From Flavobacteriales bacterium (GTDB taxonomy: Bacteria; Bacteroidota; Bacteroidia; Flavobacteriales_F; PHOS-HE28), in assembly GCA_023957375.1 (NCBI GenBank), contig JAMLHB010000002.1:1-64000 (forward strand): a DNA stretch of 64,000 nt. Reading direction: 5' to 3'. Position numbers and translations under genes: made by a program. Below, in pieces: positions 18,548-46,975 of this stretch; positions within the stretch are counted from its first letter, which is position 1; each line of letters opens with the position of its first letter. The notes below the pieces were generated by a model. The model worked only from the letters and a program-made list of their open reading frames with translations. It had not been told where the DNA came from and searched no databases.

Positions 18548-18620
18548 CACGGGAGGCAGGAATCGAACCCGCAGCCTACGGTTTTGGAGACCGTCGCTCT
18601 ACCGATTGAGCTACTCCCGT
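18548..18620 (-). tRNA. tRNA-Trp (CCA)
   Basis: Full cloverleaf: acceptor ACGGGAG/CTCCCGT, anticodon stem-loop ACGGT-CTCCAAA-ACCGT with anticodon CCA (plus-strand 18585-18587), and T-arm 'GGGTTCGATTCC'. 3' CCA not encoded. Sits between tuf and secE, as in many bacteria. Confidence 0.95.
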
Positions 18621-18654
18621 TCATTTCCTTTCCTGTGCCTTGCTTTCGGCGCCG

Positions 18655-18685
18655 AAGGCCGCCCCGCGCAGTGCGGAGCGGCCTT
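18655..18685. terminator. Hairpin between tuf and tRNA-Trp
   Basis: AAGGCCGC...GCGGCCTT stem with a further GC-rich inner stem, 21 bases after the tuf stop. On the minus strand it lacks a T-run, so partial termination or a processing site between tuf and the tRNA is more likely than full termination. Confidence 0.4.
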
Positions 18686-18705
18686 TTGGCATCCATATTC
18701 TGCGC

Positions 18706-19893
18706 TTACTTGCTGATTTCGGTAACCTGGCCGGCACCCACGGTGCGCCCACCCTCGCGGATGGCGAAACGCAGGCCCTTGTCCATGGCGATCGGCACGA
18801 TCAGTTTCACGGAGATCGTCACGTTGTCGCCGGGCATCACCATTTCGCGGCCTTCGGGCAGGGTGATCTCGCCGGTAACGTCCGTGGTGCGGAAGTAGAA
18901 TTGGGGGCGGTACTTGTTGTGGAAAGGGGTGTGGCGTCCGCCTTCCTCCTTCTTCAACACGTAGATCTCGCCCTTGAACTCGGTGTGCGGGGTGATGCTG
19001 CCGGGCTTGGCGATCACCATGCCGCGGCGGATCTGGTTCTTTTCAATGCCGCGCAGCAGCAGGCCCACGTTGTCGCCGGCCTCGCCGCGGTCCAGCAGCT
19101 TCTTGAACATTTCCACGCCGGTGCAGGTGCTGGTGAGCTTTTCCTCCTGCATCCCCACGACCTCCAAGGGGTCTCCGGTCTTCACCACGCCCAGCTCGAT
19201 GCGGCCGGTGGCCACGGTGCCGCGGCCGGTGATGGAGAACACGTCCTCCACGCTCATCAGCAGGGGCTTTTCCACGTCACGGGGCGGCACGGGGATCCAG
19301 GTGTCCACCGCTTTCATCAGTTCCATCACACTTTCCACCCACTTGGGCTCGCCGTTCAGGGCGCCCAGGGCGCTGCCGCGGATCACCGGGGTGTTGTCCC
19401 CATCGTACTCATAGAAGCTGAGCAGCTCGCGGATCTCCATTTCCACCAGGTCGAGCAGTTCGGCGTCATCCACCAGGTCCACCTTGTTCATGAACACCAC
19501 GATCTTGGGCACGCCCACTTGGCGGCCCAGCAGGATGTGCTCGCGGGTTTGGGGCATGGGGCCGTCGGTGGCGGCCACCACCAGGATGGCACCGTCCATT
19601 TGCGCGGCACCGGTCACCATGTTCTTCACATAGTCGGCGTGGCCCGGGCAGTCCACGTGCGCATAGTGGCGGTTCTCGGTGGAATACTCCACGTGCGAGG
19701 TGTTGATCGTGATGCCGCGTTCCTTTTCCTCGGGCGCGTTGTCGATGGAATCGAAGCTGCGTGCCTCGGACAGGCCCTTGTCGGCCAGCACTTTGCTGAT
19801 GGCCGCCGTGAGGGTGGTCTTGCCGTGGTCAACGTGGCCGATGGTGCCGATGTTGAGGTGCGGTTTGTTGCGTTGATAAGTCTCCTTTGCCAT
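18706..19893 (-). CDS. tuf: Elongation factor Tu
   Basis: 395 residues beginning '[20 protein letters not shown]'. P-loop '[10 protein letters not shown]' (19-28), switch II 'DCPGHADY', guanine specificity 'NKVD', and domains 2-3 complete to 'GQVTEI'. Delivers aminoacyl-tRNA to the ribosome. Preceded by four tRNA genes in the same order (Thr-Tyr-Gly-Thr) as E. coli thrU-tyrU-glyT-thrT-tufB. Confidence 0.98.
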
Positions 19894-20001
19894 GTGGGAA
19901 CGGTCGTTTGGTGTTGTTCTTGTTCGTTACTTGTTCCGGTTGATCCTTTCCGATGTACCTGCCGTTGCGGCTTTCTCCTTTCCCCATGGACCGGGGCCTG
20001 G

Positions 20002-20073
<72 letters not shown>

Positions 20074-20154
20074 CTTTGTATGGTTGGTTCGCCGCACCCC
20101 TGGAAGCGGGGTGGCAGCGATCGGCCGCCGGCGCGGATGCGGGGGCGGCCAAAG

Positions 20155-20227
20155 AGCGGGAGACGAGATTCGAACCCGCGACATTCAGCTTGGAAGGCTG
20201 ATGCTCTACCAACTGAGCTACTCCCGC
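20155..20227 (-). tRNA. tRNA-Gly (TCC)
   Basis: Acceptor GCGGGAG/CTCCCGC, anticodon arm TCAGC-CTTCCAA-GCTGA with anticodon TCC, T-arm 'GGGTTCGAATCTC'. CCA not encoded. Third of four tRNAs leading to tuf. Confidence 0.95.
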
Positions 20228-20278
20228 TTGGTTGCCGGACGGGCGATCATCTTCGGGCGGCTCCGTGAAGGGCGATGG

Positions 20279-20361
20279 TGGGGAGAGCAGGATTCGAACC
20301 TACGAAGTCGTAAGACAGCAGATTTACAGTCTGCCCCCGTTGGCCGCTTGGGTATCTCCCC
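20279..20361 (-). tRNA. tRNA-Tyr (GTA)
   Basis: 83 nt with a long variable arm (class II). Acceptor GGGGAGA/TCTCCCC, anticodon arm GCAGA-CTGTAAA-TCTGC with anticodon GTA. CCA follows at 20278-20276, so it may be encoded. Confidence 0.95.
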
Positions 20362-20376
20362 TTGGTCCTGGCACGG

Positions 20377-20449
20377 AGCCAATGAAGGGACTCGAACCCC
20401 CGACCGGCTGATTACAAATCAGCTGCTCTACCAGCTGAGCTACATTGGC
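20377..20449 (-). tRNA. tRNA-Thr (TGT)
   Basis: Acceptor GCCAATG/CATTGGC, anticodon arm GCTGA-TTTGTAA-TCAGC with anticodon TGT, T-arm 'GGGTTCGAGTCCC'. CCA not encoded. First gene of the tRNA-tuf transcript. Confidence 0.95.
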
Positions 20450-28790: not shown

Positions 28791-28993
28791 CAGGGCCATC
28801 GGGTCTTATACCTGCGCCTGGCGGCGTATTCATACCCTGACTTTTGAACCACGGATCCACACGGATGGACACGGATCAAGAAGGTTGTTTTACTCGGTAG
28901 GTGGGTCCGCAATCCGTGTGCATCGGTGTCCATCCGTGGTTTGAATACCATTGGAAGCCGCGCCCGCAGGGCGCGTTAGACCCGATGGCCCTG
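28791..28993. mobile_element. MITE-like element, 203 bp, with 16-bp terminal inverted repeats and 10-bp target duplication
   Basis: CAGGGCCATCGGGTCT at 28791-28806 is perfectly inverted at 28978-28993. The element is flanked directly by ACGAAAGGGG at 28781-28790 and 28994-29003, a perfect 10-base direct repeat. The interior is itself palindromic: GTATTCA/TGAATAC and a run of CCACGGATG-CACACGGAT units facing their complement. No gene fits inside, so it would be non-autonomous. A further copy of its terminal repeat lies at 25730. Confidence 0.85.
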
Positions 28994-29005
28994 ACGAAAG
29001 GGGTG

Positions 29006-29061
29006 GTTCGTAGGGCGTGGTGCATAGGGCGTAGTTCGTAGGGTGTGTGACTCGTGACTCG
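29006..29061. repeat. Heptamer array, eight units in register
   Basis: Eight consecutive 7-mers: GTTCGTA, GGGCGTG, GTGCATA, GGGCGTA, GTTCGTA, GGGTGTG, TGACTCG, TGACTCG. It begins 2 bases after the MITE target duplication and ends exactly at the IS3 terminus. Bases 29026-29043 recur inverted at 30515-30532, on the other side of the IS. Confidence 0.8.
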
Positions 29062-31930: not shown

Positions 31931-32073
31931 GGAATAGTTCGTGGTTCGCAGGTCAGCACATGGTGCGACGTGGAATTGGGTGGTCCGTTGTCCGTTGTCA
32001 GTTGTCAGTTGTCAGTTGTCGGGAAAGACCACTGACAACCAACACCTACACCCTACAAACCACGAACTATTCC
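31931..32073. repeat. Hairpin repeat element with 16-bp terminal inverted repeats and GTCAGTT heptamers
   Basis: GGAATAGTTCGTGGTT (31931-31946) is perfectly inverted at 32058-32073. Inside is a run of heptamers (GTCCGTT twice, GTCAGTT three times, 31983-32017) and a facing TGACAAC. The right terminal repeat lies inside the end of pyrF and encodes its last residues; the TAG stop at 32053-32055 lies just inside it. Confidence 0.8.
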
Positions 32074-42175: not shown

Positions 42176-43185
42176 GCACCACGGACGACTTCCGCAAGAT
42201 CCGGCGCGAGCTGGCCAACGGCACCTTCAAGCCGATCTACTTCCTGCACGGCGAAGAATCATTCTTCATTGACCGCCTTGCGGAAGAAGTTGAACGTTAC
42301 GGACTACAGGAGCATGAACGGGATTTCAACCTGAGCATCCTGTACGGCAAGGACACCACGCCGGAAACCCTGGTGGACGTGTGCCTGCGCTACCCCATGA
42401 TGGCGGAACGCCAGGTGGTCGTCCTGCGGGAGGCCCAAACATGGAGGATCGAAGCGTTCGACAAGCTGGAGGGCTATTTTAGGAAGCCCACGCCCACCAC
42501 CGTGCTGGTGATCTGCTACAAGCACAAGAAAGCGGACGGGCGCAAAACCTGGCTGAAGGACCTCGCCAAAAAACAGGTGGTCTTCACCAGTGATAAGCTG
42601 AAGGACGAAAAGCTGCCCGAGTGGATCCAGCTCTACGTCAACTCCCACAAACGGCGCATCGGGCCGGTGGAAGCCAAGTTGCTTGCGGACCATTTGGGCA
42701 GCGACCTGGGCAAGCTCACCAACGAGGTGGAAAAGCTTTGCATCGTCACCGAACAAGGAGGAGCCATCACCACGGACTTGATCCAGCGCAACGTGGGCAT
42801 CAGCAAGGAGTTCAACATCTTCGAGCTGCAAAAGGCCATGGGTAGCGGGGACCATTACAAGGCCCAGCGGATCGCGCATTTCCTGGCTTCGGACAAGAAT
42901 TCACCCTTGGTGATGACGGTCGGGCTGCTGAGCTCGTATTTCGCCAAGGTCGGTGTTGTGCACTCCAGCGCCGGAAAGTCGCAAGGTGAACTGGCTACAG
43001 CATTGAAAGTTCCCCCGTTCTTCGTGAAGGAATATGCCCAGGCCGCGCGCATCTACACCCCGGCAAAGCTCCGGCAAGTGCATCACTTGCTCCGCGAAGC
43101 CGACCTCAAGTCCAAAGGCGTAGGCAACACCAGCGCTGATGACGGGGAATTGTTGCGGGAGCTGGTGACGAGGGTGATGATTTAA
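42172..43185 (+). CDS. holA: DNA polymerase III subunit delta
   Basis: 337 residues. Clamp-loader fold: 'FKPIYFLHGEESFFIDRLAEEVERY' near the N terminus, 'TPETLVDVCLRYPMMAERQVVVLREAQ', domain III 'LGSDLGKLTNEVEKLCIV' and 'FNIFELQKAMGSGDHYKAQRIAHFL'. Opens the sliding clamp for loading. Translationally coupled to AMP nucleosidase. A heptamer array begins about 20 bases after its stop. Confidence 0.92.
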   Translation: MSTTDDFRKIRRELANGTFKPIYFLHGEESFFIDRLAEEVERYGLQEHERDFNLSILYGKDTTPETLVDVCLRYPMMAERQVVVLREAQTWRIEAFDKLEGYFRKPTPTTVLVICYKHKKADGRKTWLKDLAKKQVVFTSDKLKDEKLPEWIQLYVNSHKRRIGPVEAKLLADHLGSDLGKLTNEVEKLCIVTEQGGAITTDLIQRNVGISKEFNIFELQKAMGSGDHYKAQRIAHFLASDKNSPLVMTVGLLSSYFAKVGVVHSSAGKSQGELATALKVPPFFVKEYAQAARIYTPAKLRQVHHLLREADLKSKGVGNTSADDGELLRELVTRVMI

Positions 43186-43207: not shown

Positions 43208-43485
43208 TGAGTCCAGAGTCTGAGTTCTGAGTCGGGAGTCAGAAGTCCGGGAGTCCGAAGTCCGGGAGTCCGAAGTCCGGGAGTCAGAAGTCCAGGAGTC
43301 GGGAGTCCGAAGTCCGAAGTCCGGGAGTCCGGGAGTCCGAAGTCCGAAGTCCGGGAGTCCGGGAGTCCGAAGTCCGAAGTCCGGGAGTCAGAAGTCCGGG
43401 AGTCGGGAGTCGGTGAGCCGGGAGTCAGAAGTCCCGGAGTCGGGAGTTGACTCAAGACTCAGGACTTCTGGACTCACGACTCATG
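43208..43485. repeat. AGTC-type 7/8-mer array, left of the four-helix-bundle gene
   Basis: More than 25 units starting with AGTC, mostly 7 bases (AGTCGGG, AGTCAGA, AGTCCGA) with 8-base variants (AGTCCGGG, AGTCCAGG). It then switches to the opposite orientation (GACTCAA, GACTCAG, GACTTCTG, GACTCAC, GACTCAT), so the end can fold back on the array. The last 41 bases (43442-43482) recur at 44117-44157 with one mismatch. No spacer/repeat pattern of a CRISPR is present. Confidence 0.9.
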
Positions 43486-43586
43486 ACGTAAATCCCTTGA
43501 GTCGGGAGCTGCGAAGCGGACGGCCTGGCAATCGGATGGTTTGTATTTCGGGGGGAATGCCTATGTTCGGAAAAAACCAATGAACC

Positions 43587-43949
43587 ATGGGAAGAGTACA
43601 GGATTTGTTTGCCTACCGGAAGGGTTTCGCATTGGCCATGGCCATTTTCAAAACGACGAAACAATTTCCAAAGGAAGAACAATACAGTATGACCGATCAG
43701 ATCCGCCGCAGCTCGCGCTCTGTAGTGGTCAATCTGACGGAAGCATACCGGCGCAGGCGCACATTGAAGTACTTCGAGGCGAAGCTCAATGACTGCGAAA
43801 CCGAGCTGGGCGAAACACAGACGTGGATTGAATTCGCGAAGGCGTGCGAGTACATCACCGAGCAGGTCTATGACAAGCTTTACAATGATGCCGAAGAGGT
43901 AGCGAGGCTGCTGAATATGATGGCGAAGAACCCGAGGAAGTTCATGTAG
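43587..43949 (+). CDS. Four-helix-bundle protein (23S rRNA intervening-sequence/Avd-like family)
   Basis: 120 residues, almost entirely helical. Family signatures: 'DLFAYRKGFALAMAIFKTTKQFPKEEQYSMTDQIRRSSRSVVVNLTEAYRRR', then 'YFEAKLNDCETELGETQTWIEFAKACEYI' and 'LYNDAEEVARLLNMMAKN'. These are small basic bundles first seen inside 23S rRNA intervening sequences and related to the Avd accessory protein of diversity-generating retroelements; they bind nucleic acid. No rRNA or reverse transcriptase is here. The gene lies in a 105-base gap after one array, and its TAG stop is immediately followed by the second array (GAGTCGG). AT content is higher than in its neighbours. Confidence 0.87.
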   Translation: MGRVQDLFAYRKGFALAMAIFKTTKQFPKEEQYSMTDQIRRSSRSVVVNLTEAYRRRRTLKYFEAKLNDCETELGETQTWIEFAKACEYITEQVYDKLYNDAEEVARLLNMMAKNPRKFM

Positions 43950-44169
43950 GAGTCGGGAGTCTTGAGCCGGGAGTCGGTGAGTCGGTGAGTCGGGAGTCGG
44001 TGAGTCGGTGAGTCGGGAGTCGGGAGTCGGTGAGTCGGGAGCTGATGAGTCGGGAGTCTTGAGTCGGGAGTCTTGAGTCGGGAGTCGGTGAGTCGGTGAG
44101 TCGGGAGTCGGGAGTCGGGAGTTGACTCAAGACTCAGGACTTCCGGACTCACGACTCTCATGGGCTCAC
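43950..44169. repeat. GAGTCGG 7/8-mer array, right of the four-helix-bundle gene
   Basis: About 23 units of GAGTCGG or GAGTCGGT, with variants GAGTCTT, GAGCCGG and GAGCTGAT, starting at the base after the stop codon. It ends in the inverted-orientation block shared with the left array (44117-44157) plus a further GGCTCACGAC. It finishes 20 bases before the valS promoter box. Confidence 0.9.
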
Positions 44170-44188
44170 GACTTCACCGAACCTCCGG

Positions 44189-44212: not shown

Positions 44213-46858
44213 ATGGAACTTCCCAAGCACTACCAGGCGCAAGCCGTTGAGGACAAGTGGTATCCGCATTGGTTGGAAAAAGGCTATTTCCACAGCGTGC
44301 CGGATGGGCGCGAACCATACACTGTGGTGATCCCCCCGCCCAACGTGACCGGCGTGCTGCACATGGGGCACATGCTGAACAACACCATCCAGGACGTGCT
44401 GGTGCGGCGCGCGCGGATGCAGGGCAAGAACGCCTGCTGGGTGCCCGGCACGGACCATGCCAGCATTGCCACGGAGGCCAAGGTGGTGCGGTTGCTGGCC
44501 GAGCAAGGCATCAAGAAGAGCGCCATCGGCCGGGAGAAATTCCTGGAACACGCCTTTGCCTGGAAGGAGAAGTACGGCGGCGTGATCCTGGAGCAATTGA
44601 AAAAGCTCGGTGCCAGTTGCGATTGGGAGCGTACACGCTTCACCATGGAGCCAACCATGAGCGAGGCCGTGCTGGACGTGTTCATCGACCTGCACAAAAA
44701 AGGCCTGGTGTACCGCGGCCAGCGCATGGTGAACTGGGACCCTGTGGCCCTCACTGCGGTGAGCGACGAAGAGGTGATCCACAAGGAGGTCAACTCCAAG
44801 CTGTACCACGTGCGCTACCAAGTGGAAGGCACTACCGATGCGTGGATCACCATTGCCACCACGCGCCCGGAAACCATCTTGGGCGATACCGCGGTGGCCG
44901 TACATCCCGAGGACGAGCGCTACGCCCACCTCAAAGGCAAGCGCGTGCTGGTGCCGCTGATCAACCGCCCCGTGCCGCTGATCTTCGATGCCTACGTGGA
45001 CCGCGAGTTCGGCACCGGCGCGCTGAAGGTGACCCCCGCGCACGACATCAACGACTGGGAGATCGGCCAGCGGCATAAGCTGGAGGTGATCGACACACTG
45101 AACCCCGACGGCACCCTGAGCCCCGCTGCGCAGCTCTATGTGGGCGAGGACCGCTTCAAGGTGCGCAAGCAGATCGCCAAAGACCTGGAGAAAAAAGGCC
45201 ACCTGGTGAAGACCGAGGACATCCGGAACAAGGTGGGCTACAGCGAGCGCACCGATGCCGTGATCGAGCCGCGCCTCAGCTTGCAGTGGTTCGTGCGGAT
45301 GGCCGAGCTGGCCAAGCCCGCGCTGGAGGTGGTGAAGGAAGGAAAGGTGAAGCTGCACCCGCAGAAATTCGTGAACACCTACACGCACTGGATGGAGAAC
45401 GTGCGCGACTGGTGCATCAGCCGCCAGCTGTGGTGGGGACAGCAGATCCCGGCATGGTACAACGAAGCGGGCGAGGTGGCCGTGTGCAAGACCGAAGCCG
45501 AGGCCATCGCCCAGTTCCAGGCCGCAGGCCAAAGCACCCAGGGCATCCGGCAGGACGAGGATGTGGTGGACACCTGGTTCAGCAGTTGGCTGTGGCCCAT
45601 CAGCGTGTTCGATGGCTTCAAGGACCCGGAGAACGCCGACATCAAGTACTACTATCCTACCAACGACCTGGTGACGGCGCCGGAGATCCTCTTCTTTTGG
45701 GTGGCGCGCATGATCATGTCCGGGCTGGAATACCGCAACGAAGTGCCGTTCAGGAACGTGTACCTCACGGGCATCGTGCGCGACAAGCAGGGCCGCAAGA
45801 TGAGCAAGAGCTTGGGCAACAGCCCCGATCCGCTGGAGCTGATCGCCAAGTACGGCGCCGACGGCGTGCGCATGGGCATGCTCCTCTCCTCCCCCGCCGG
45901 CAATGATCTGCCGTTCGATGAAAGCCTTTGCGAGCAGGGCCGCAATTTTTCCAACAAGATCTGGAACGCGTTCCGCTTGGTGAAGGGGTGGAGCGTGTCG
46001 CCCTTCGGCTCCGCTCAGAGTGACCCGCTCCACCCCGCAGGTAACGCAGCGGCCATCGCCTGGATGCGCAGCCGCTTGCAGCGCACCACCGCCGAGCTGG
46101 AGGAACTCTATGCCCAGTTCCGCATCAGCGAGGCGCTGATGACCACCTACAAGCTGATCTGGGACGACTTCTGCAGCTGGTACCTCGAAGCGGTGAAACC
46201 GGCCTTCAAGGACGGTGCCGCCGAGCCGATCGATGCGGCCACGTACGAAGCCACGCTCACGCTCTTCGAGGACCTGCTGAAGCTGCTGCACCCGTACATG
46301 CCCTTCCTCACCGAGGAACTGTGGCACCACTTGCGCGACCGCAAGGACGGCGAGGACATCATCATCGCGGTCTGGCCAAAAGGCGGGGCTGGTGATACAA
46401 CGCTGGAAGCCGAAGTGCAACATGCTTTCGACTTAGTGAGCGCCGTGCGCGGCGTGCGCAACGAGCGCGGGCTTTCACCCAAGGAGACCCTTCAAGTTGG
46501 TCCATCGGGAGCGACACCATTAGGTGGCGCAACTGCTTCACTCGTGGACAAACTGGCGAATACCGGACCGCTCGCCGGTCCGTTTAAGTCCATTCCCGCC
46601 GGTGCAACCGCAGTATTCTCCGGAAGCACGGAATATGCCGTGATCCTCCCCGAAATGGACAGTGCCGCCGAAAGTGAAAAAGCCCAGGAGGAATTGAAAT
46701 ACCTGCGCGGCTTCTTGGCCAGTGTGGAGAAGAAGCTGGGCAACGAACGCTTCGTGAGCGGCGCGCCCCCTCAGGTGCTGGAGAACGAGCGCAAGAAGAA
46801 GGCGGACGCCGAGGCGAAGATCAAGGCGTTGGAGGAACGGCTGGCGGTACTGAAATAG
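44213..46858 (+). CDS. valS: Valine-tRNA ligase
   Basis: 881 residues. HIGH-type motif 'NVTGVLHMGH' (44-53), KMSKS at 529-533, editing CP1 domain ('TIATTRPETILGDTAVAVHP'), anticodon-binding domain, and C-terminal coiled coil ('SGAPPQVLENERKKKADAEAKIKALEERLAVL'). Class I synthetase charging tRNA-Val. Complete length. Transcribed alone; followed by dispersed repeats. Confidence 0.97.
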   Translation: MELPKHYQAQAVEDKWYPHWLEKGYFHSVPDGREPYTVVIPPPNVTGVLHMGHMLNNTIQDVLVRRARMQGKNACWVPGTDHASIATEAKVVRLLAEQGIKKSAIGREKFLEHAFAWKEKYGGVILEQLKKLGASCDWERTRFTMEPTMSEAVLDVFIDLHKKGLVYRGQRMVNWDPVALTAVSDEEVIHKEVNSKLYHVRYQVEGTTDAWITIATTRPETILGDTAVAVHPEDERYAHLKGKRVLVPLINRPVPLIFDAYVDREFGTGALKVTPAHDINDWEIGQRHKLEVIDTLNPDGTLSPAAQLYVGEDRFKVRKQIAKDLEKKGHLVKTEDIRNKVGYSERTDAVIEPRLSLQWFVRMAELAKPALEVVKEGKVKLHPQKFVNTYTHWMENVRDWCISRQLWWGQQIPAWYNEAGEVAVCKTEAEAIAQFQAAGQSTQGIRQDEDVVDTWFSSWLWPISVFDGFKDPENADIKYYYPTNDLVTAPEILFFWVARMIMSGLEYRNEVPFRNVYLTGIVRDKQGRKMSKSLGNSPDPLELIAKYGADGVRMGMLLSSPAGNDLPFDESLCEQGRNFSNKIWNAFRLVKGWSVSPFGSAQSDPLHPAGNAAAIAWMRSRLQRTTAELEELYAQFRISEALMTTYKLIWDDFCSWYLEAVKPAFKDGAAEPIDAATYEATLTLFEDLLKLLHPYMPFLTEELWHHLRDRKDGEDIIIAVWPKGGAGDTTLEAEVQHAFDLVSAVRGVRNERGLSPKETLQVGPSGATPLGGATASLVDKLANTGPLAGPFKSIPAGATAVFSGSTEYAVILPEMDSAAESEKAQEELKYLRGFLASVEKKLGNERFVSGAPPQVLENERKKKADAEAKIKALEERLAVLK

Positions 46859-46866
46859 GGCTCGGT

Positions 46867-46975
46867 TTTTTCACCACGGAGGCACGGAGGACACAGAGGA
46901 ATACGTCGTGGTTTTTTTCACCACGGAGGCACGGGGCGCACAGAGGAATGCAACGTGGTTTGTTCACCACAGGGG
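46867..46975. repeat. CACGGAGG-type repeat, three consecutive copies
   Basis: About 50-base units beginning TTCACCACGGAGGCACGG at 46869 and 46918, with ACACAGAGGAA or GCACAGAGGAA after them. A third, degraded start TTCACCACAGGGGC lies at about 46965. No gene. Located in the gap between convergent valS and a T9SS gene. Confidence 0.7.

Follow-up and report, generated by a model that had tools for sequence, protein, structure and literature searches.

A cassette of an S23 gene between matched repeat arrays in Flavobacteriales, and its possible mobility

The cassette between holA and valS

What kind of element is a small gene that sits alone between two long arrays of 7- and 8-base repeats? The question is raised by the holA-valS junction of the window (the whole 64,000-nucleotide stretch analysed here), where, with both neighbours named by reading their translations, holA ends at 43185 and valS starts at 44213. 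The junction is occupied by a cassette whose gene (43587-43949, + strand) encodes a 120-residue protein of the S23, or IVP, family (PF05635, TIGR02436). The left array (43208-43487) consists of a forward run of AGTC-type 7/8-mers (43208-43448, + strand, 30 AGTC) and, behind it, an inverted tail of GACTC units (43449-43487, - strand, 5 GACT), which in the predicted fold is base-paired to the array's 5' end; a spacer or 5' leader, conserved in comparison with the related strain L148, runs from there to the start codon (43488-43586, + strand). The right array (43950-44174) starts at the first base after the TAG stop codon, with its own forward run (43950-44123, + strand, 21 AGTC) and an inverted tail (44124-44174, - strand, 6 GACT) that is a near-copy of the left one. 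Successive AGTC motifs in both arrays are mostly spaced by 7 or 8, and the density of AGTC and GACT together is about 120 per kb within the arrays (62 in about 0.5 kb) versus about 2 per kb in the remaining window. An earlier note, made from the sequence of the window, had described an S23-type gene alone between two AGTC arrays, the right one beginning directly behind the stop codon, and profile matches, TRF (scores of 236 and 216 for the left and right arrays) and unit counts bear out this arrangement. The arrays themselves are more elaborate than that description, as each combines a forward run with an inverted tail and is thus a potential hairpin, with a predicted RNA fold of -134.8 kcal/mol for the left array (z -5.0). 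Elsewhere in the window, five tRNA genes are clustered at 18548-20449 (- strand), and a repeat of about 47 bases, of the CACCACGGAGGCACGGAGCACACAGAGG type, lies at 46864-46970, just after valS.

The protein matches PF05635 (23S_rRNA_IVP, E 1.2e-30) and TIGR02436 (1.6e-28), with a weak match to Pfam bAvd (3e-10). Its AlphaFold2 model (pLDDT 94.4) aligns to the Xanthomonas S23 structure PDB 2GSC with a TM of 0.90, and the predicted structure belongs to the S23/IVP four-helix-bundle fold, like 2GSC and 2RLD. Of the suggestion that this is a small basic helical bundle, the bundle holds, but the protein is only mildly basic, with about 21 K/R versus 17 D/E counted by eye. The median dN/dS of S23 genes is 0.09 over 28 pairs, and therefore the protein is under purifying selection and is put to use. 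No catalytic domain was found in the S23 protein, and neither the open reading frame list nor profile searches identified a transposase or integrase in the cassette, in which S23 is the sole gene, in agreement with the earlier reading that transposase, integrase and reverse transcriptase are all lacking. The fold is shared with Avd of diversity-generating retroelements (4DWL from phage, TM 0.79 at 12% identity, besides the bAvd match), but the window protein has a DivGenRetAVD score of 31, under the cut-off of 80, and its genome encodes no RVT_1 domain. A co-occurrence of S23 with reverse transcriptase was considered and rejected, with RVT_1 having 0 matches in this genome and none in 26 of the 35 genomes searched.

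Matched arms around S23 genes in the genus and in other phyla

The genome carrying the window (3.83 Mb, 4 contigs) contains four PF05635 genes above cut-off, at sites that include sdhC-sdhA, sdhA-sdhB and similar junctions. All four have arrays on both sides, each with a distinct unit: AGTC at the window gene, TTGTCAG at L003, GCGGGTT/AACCCG at L004, and GAGAGGAA / TTCACTTC at L001, where the sides match only loosely. The resemblance between arms was scored by local alignment of the 300 bases upstream against the reverse-complemented 220 bases downstream, which was used instead of an earlier measure, shared 7-mers over 350-base flanks, that was diluted by coding sequence. In the genus, the median arm score was 34 for matched loci versus 17 for mismatched pairs, and at a threshold of 30, inverted matching arms were found at 49 of 79 genus loci (62%) and at 7 of 16 loci from elsewhere in the class, with about one third of genus loci lacking clear inverted arms under this score.

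Such arms are rare around other sequences. The earlier note had set beforehand, as the comparison on which its proposed association would stand or fall, the enrichment of arrays at homologous genes, and the association withstood it; the genus figure of 49/79 compares with 8 of 483 other genes (1.7%; Fisher p 5e-41), and with 0 of 21 PIN-domain genes, and the link is seen in both Bacteroidota and Cyanobacteria. Across 484 gene-like open reading frames of the window's own genome, nine score, namely the window gene itself and eight more, among them a RAYT/REP locus and an IS, as do 0.28% of random intervals. The arms also have a consistent geometry: the left arm contains more G than C in 50 of 59 loci, indicating conserved polarity, and by medians the arms are 31 nt long, ending 59 nt upstream of the start codon and beginning 22 nt downstream of the stop. 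This proximity to start and stop would suit autoregulation, in which the protein controls its own expression by binding the array within its transcript or promoter region, the arms being operators rather than ends; many nucleic-acid-binding proteins autoregulate. Yet this would leave unexplained the right arm, the inverted orientation, and the filled and empty junctions and solitary arrays described below, making it very improbable as an account of the cassette.

The association extends well beyond the genus. Elsewhere in the class, 13 of the 16 loci from other families score above the 99th percentile obtained with mismatched pairs, and most Bacteroidales loci also have matched arms (L153, L155-L159). 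For S23 genes on cyanobacterial plasmids, from Nostoc, Anabaena, Calothrix, Geminocystis, Pseudanabaena, Picosynechococcus and others, 6/12 exceed the corresponding percentile and about 10/12 are matched by eye, with arm units such as TAGGGAG / CTCCCTA, GGGAACA / TGTTCCC, GGTGACA and GGAGATA. A single-protein query returned 17 related loci, including two from Patescibacteria without clear arms. Hence the generality of the S23-array association across Bacteroidota and Cyanobacteria is well supported by these comparisons. Several of the plasmid cassettes are situated within cas operons, nrd and tra operons being occupied as well, and those between cas genes have the orders cas6-S23-cas4 and cas10-S23-cmr3 (L191, L194, L200). 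As a CRISPR survey counts '23S rRNA IVP' among CRISPR-linked proteins (PMC10910872), this status may reflect insertion of cassettes into cas operons, in which case S23 genes there may be passengers and not CRISPR components.

Filled, empty and exchanged junctions

Arm sequence tracks the relatedness of the S23 protein rather than the site. Between S23 genes located at different sites, the arms have a similarity of 0.004 below 30% protein identity and 0.249 at 70-80%; pairs of at least 55% identity at different sites have a mean arm similarity of 0.132 versus a permuted mean of 0.024 (maximum 0.068; 0/5000), where sites were assigned automatically, such that some single-member sites may be wrong, and the AGTC case was read directly. 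In that case, the window's lineage is found at two sites, holA-valS and GNAT-aspartokinase, with AGTC arms in both. At one locus (L147, around 2120-2180), the neighbouring gene, for a GNAT acetyltransferase, apparently has a short AGTC array within its reading frame.

The same junctions can be filled or empty. At holA-valS, both gene and array are absent from the closest relative found (L161, with a 98% identical ValS), L164 has a solitary AGTC hairpin array, and elsewhere this junction contains other unit families. In most genomes, sdhA and sdhB are separated by 0 to about 90 nt, often with the start codon directly at the sdhA stop, versus 543-853 nt in nine genomes with a cassette, whose arms begin at the stop codon and finish at or just before the start codon. 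Hence the comparison of related genomes for presence or absence of the whole cassette, proposed in the earlier note, identified both states at two junctions; no target-site duplication was recognised at them. The S23 genes at sdhA-sdhB (L001, L037, L054, L058, L060, L079-L084, L153 and L159, from different Bacteroidota families) represent several lineages with 31-57% identity between groups, and the junction is also used in Bacteroidales, which therefore suggests that it is a preferred, recurrent target.

Cassettes also differ from their flanks in divergence. The window and L148 are 93% identical across a 402-nt stretch reaching from the inverted tail into S23, versus 79% over 2236 nt of flanking genes, and L003 and L042 share 96.8% identity in the cassette versus 86-88% in the flanks. 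The forward run of the left array is much shorter in L148, with the inverted tail kept; array length is therefore volatile. Compared across loci in this way, the arms match each other, differ by lineage, accompany the gene when it occupies new sites and flank it in junctions that related genomes leave empty, and the cassette has been exchanged horizontally, although transfer at one junction could be homologous exchange and not insertion. These alignments support the cassette being mobile as a unit, and it is from them that we infer movement itself.

Could these features instead arise at the level of RNA? In the rRNA intervening sequence (IVS) of Coxiella, termed a selfish element, an S23 open reading frame lies in a loop with a 28-bp terminal stem, three tandem heptamers precede it, and RNase III carries out the excision (PMC4990558). 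By analogy, the arms would form a stem in a polycistronic mRNA that RNase III cuts out, with the element persisting through being removed or tolerated, and the protein protecting or escorting the RNA. The corresponding parts in Coxiella, the strong fold of the left array, and the many sites that are co-directional operon junctions all fit this, where automatic orientation calls for neighbouring genes are noisy, some being visibly wrong, and no claim is based on them alone. However, mismatches between arms have no G-U wobble preference (118 vs 123, p 0.80), and therefore RNA pairing is not favoured as what keeps the arms alike; the pattern favours DNA copying or a recent common origin. Furthermore, some copies are antisense to their operon (nrdB-S23-nrdA in Nostoc) or beside a divergent gene (L050, L062, L072), and pairing alone leaves unexplained how the arms travel with the gene between sites. 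An explanation purely at the RNA level is therefore unlikely, with processing of the IVS type possible as an additional feature of an element moving as DNA.

Solitary arrays and the proposed element

Arrays are far commoner than S23 genes. In 864 kb of the window's own genome, excluding the window cassette, 24 arrays without an S23 gene pass the filter, these including a few probable coding repeats, versus 4 genes per 3.8 Mb; two other genomes have 14 and 12 arrays in 400 kb. An array therefore does not depend on having the gene beside it. Those read in detail are often forward-then-inverted and belong to families known at S23 genes (AGTC, TTGTCAG, CCTACG, CACCATT), and within the window, a solitary GTTGTCAG array with an inverted half and no S23 gene (31983-32060) has the unit family of this genome's S23 gene at C1:1290168. 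Family means for cognate and non-cognate units were 1.25/0.53, 0.4/0.15 and 0.5/0.07 in three genomes, although with numbers this small, the sharing of unit families between solitary arrays and the S23 arms of the same genome is only suggestive. The abundance of solitary arrays, the many unit families without S23, even at the same junction, and the volatile length of the array in the window relative to L148 would also be expected if arrays were autonomous, microsatellite-like hairpins growing in tight junctions, in or beside which S23 lands to borrow ends, with its protein having another job. Such hitch-hiking is doubtful, given that other small genes are rarely bracketed in this manner (8/483, and no PIN gene), that the arm unit tracks S23 relatedness across sites, and that the same anatomy recurs in distant phyla.

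The explanation preferred here, to which we assign a probability of roughly one half, is a selfish S23 element resembling an IVS, which carries its own repeat arms as it moves in DNA form from one gene junction to another, and whose protein acts on those arms. Such an element would comprise a single S23/IVP gene and ends made of a short unit of 7-8 nt; each element lineage would have its own unit, oppositely oriented in the left and right arms. The four-helix-bundle protein, a solved relative of which is a five-membered ring, would bind its own arms when these fold in single-stranded form, and the cassette would be delivered to a further non-coding gene junction by replication, repair or recombination of the host, such that it would need no transposase or reverse transcriptase of its own. 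The arms would lengthen and shorten through slippage. In a composite copy such as that in the window (hairpin-gene-hairpin), recombination between the two arrays may leave a solitary array, like a solo LTR, and the numerous solitary arrays would then be remnants or non-autonomous copies. What the protein does and how the element moves are thus both proposals.

This putative element resembles several known systems without coinciding with any of them. As in the 23S rRNA IVSs of Leptospira and Coxiella, an S23 open reading frame lies between complementary ends, with heptamers upstream in Coxiella; the differences are that the cassettes here stand between protein-coding genes, Rfam detecting no rRNA in the window, where the flanking genes are holA and valS, or in 15 related loci, nor an rRNA context in any S23 locus so tested, and that both arms are often long tandem arrays, with a unit varying by lineage. 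The resemblance to REPtrons (RAYT with REP palindromes) raised by the earlier note extends to the layout of one gene, flanking inverted repeats and many solitary repeats elsewhere in the genome; the identity does not follow, as the cassette has no RAYT (Y1/IS200-like) transposase and its units are tandem 7/8-mers rather than one palindrome, and hence it fits the layout but is not a REPtron. What is apparently a true REPtron is present in the same genome (C1:112299-112866, - strand, L108), where a RAYT-like transposase is flanked by GACCTTG-type REP-like repeats. MITEs and composite transposons likewise have inverted ends, solitary copies or a gene between two repeats, whereas the S23 cassette has no transposase and no identified target-site duplication, and its ends are expandable arrays.

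The arms also resemble published tandem 7-mers in intergenic regions. Arrays of TAACTGA occur between genes of Beggiatoaceae, Cyanobacteria and Bacteroidetes, with horizontal spread suspected although 'no mechanism is evident' (MacGregor 2015, PMC4679880), and arrays of GGGAATC in Xanthomonas, with 70-75 cases as inverted pairs, and of GGGGA(T/C)T in Nostoc are also on record (PMC4692102). S23/IVP genes are unmentioned in the text of both papers, and in the open-licence literature no paper was found joining S23 genes with heptamer arrays. Hence of the novelty claimed in the earlier note, the link between gene and array stands, whereas the parts, IVSs with S23 open reading frames and heptamer arrays, were each already known. 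Structures have been solved for the large PF05635 family, whose function is not known, and heptamer arrays dispersed in genomes have been published without a mechanism; S23, known until now mainly from rRNA insertions, is found in many distant bacteria as a mobile-looking, repeat-bracketed cassette. Treating gene and arrays as one cognate movable unit would give both a testable role, and tie the rRNA IVS to a wider class. A broader proposal can be made tentatively, with less confidence than the preferred explanation: S23/IVP may be the trans-acting factor of unrecognised mobile elements, free of transposase and reverse transcriptase, whose ends are lineage-specific short-tandem-repeat arrays, and which would have given rise to the heptamer arrays (STRR, TAACTGA, GGGAATC and others) dispersed in cyanobacteria, Bacteroidota and Xanthomonas, with the rRNA IVS as a special case.

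Some units from different phyla resemble base-composition variants of one another, such as TTGTCAG here and TTATCAG, the reverse of TAACTGA, in cyanobacteria and Beggiatoaceae, a resemblance that could reflect shared ancestry of array families. Other repeat loci were observed in the same genome. At 28850-29060 of the window, inverted repeats of the CACGGATCC / GGATCCGTG type are followed by a AGGGCGTGGTTCGT array, without an S23 gene; an AAA ATPase gene is accompanied by AAAGTT inverted repeats at C1:94816-95992, and a MarR-like gene has GCATGGCCATGC repeats on both sides at C1:337798-338308.
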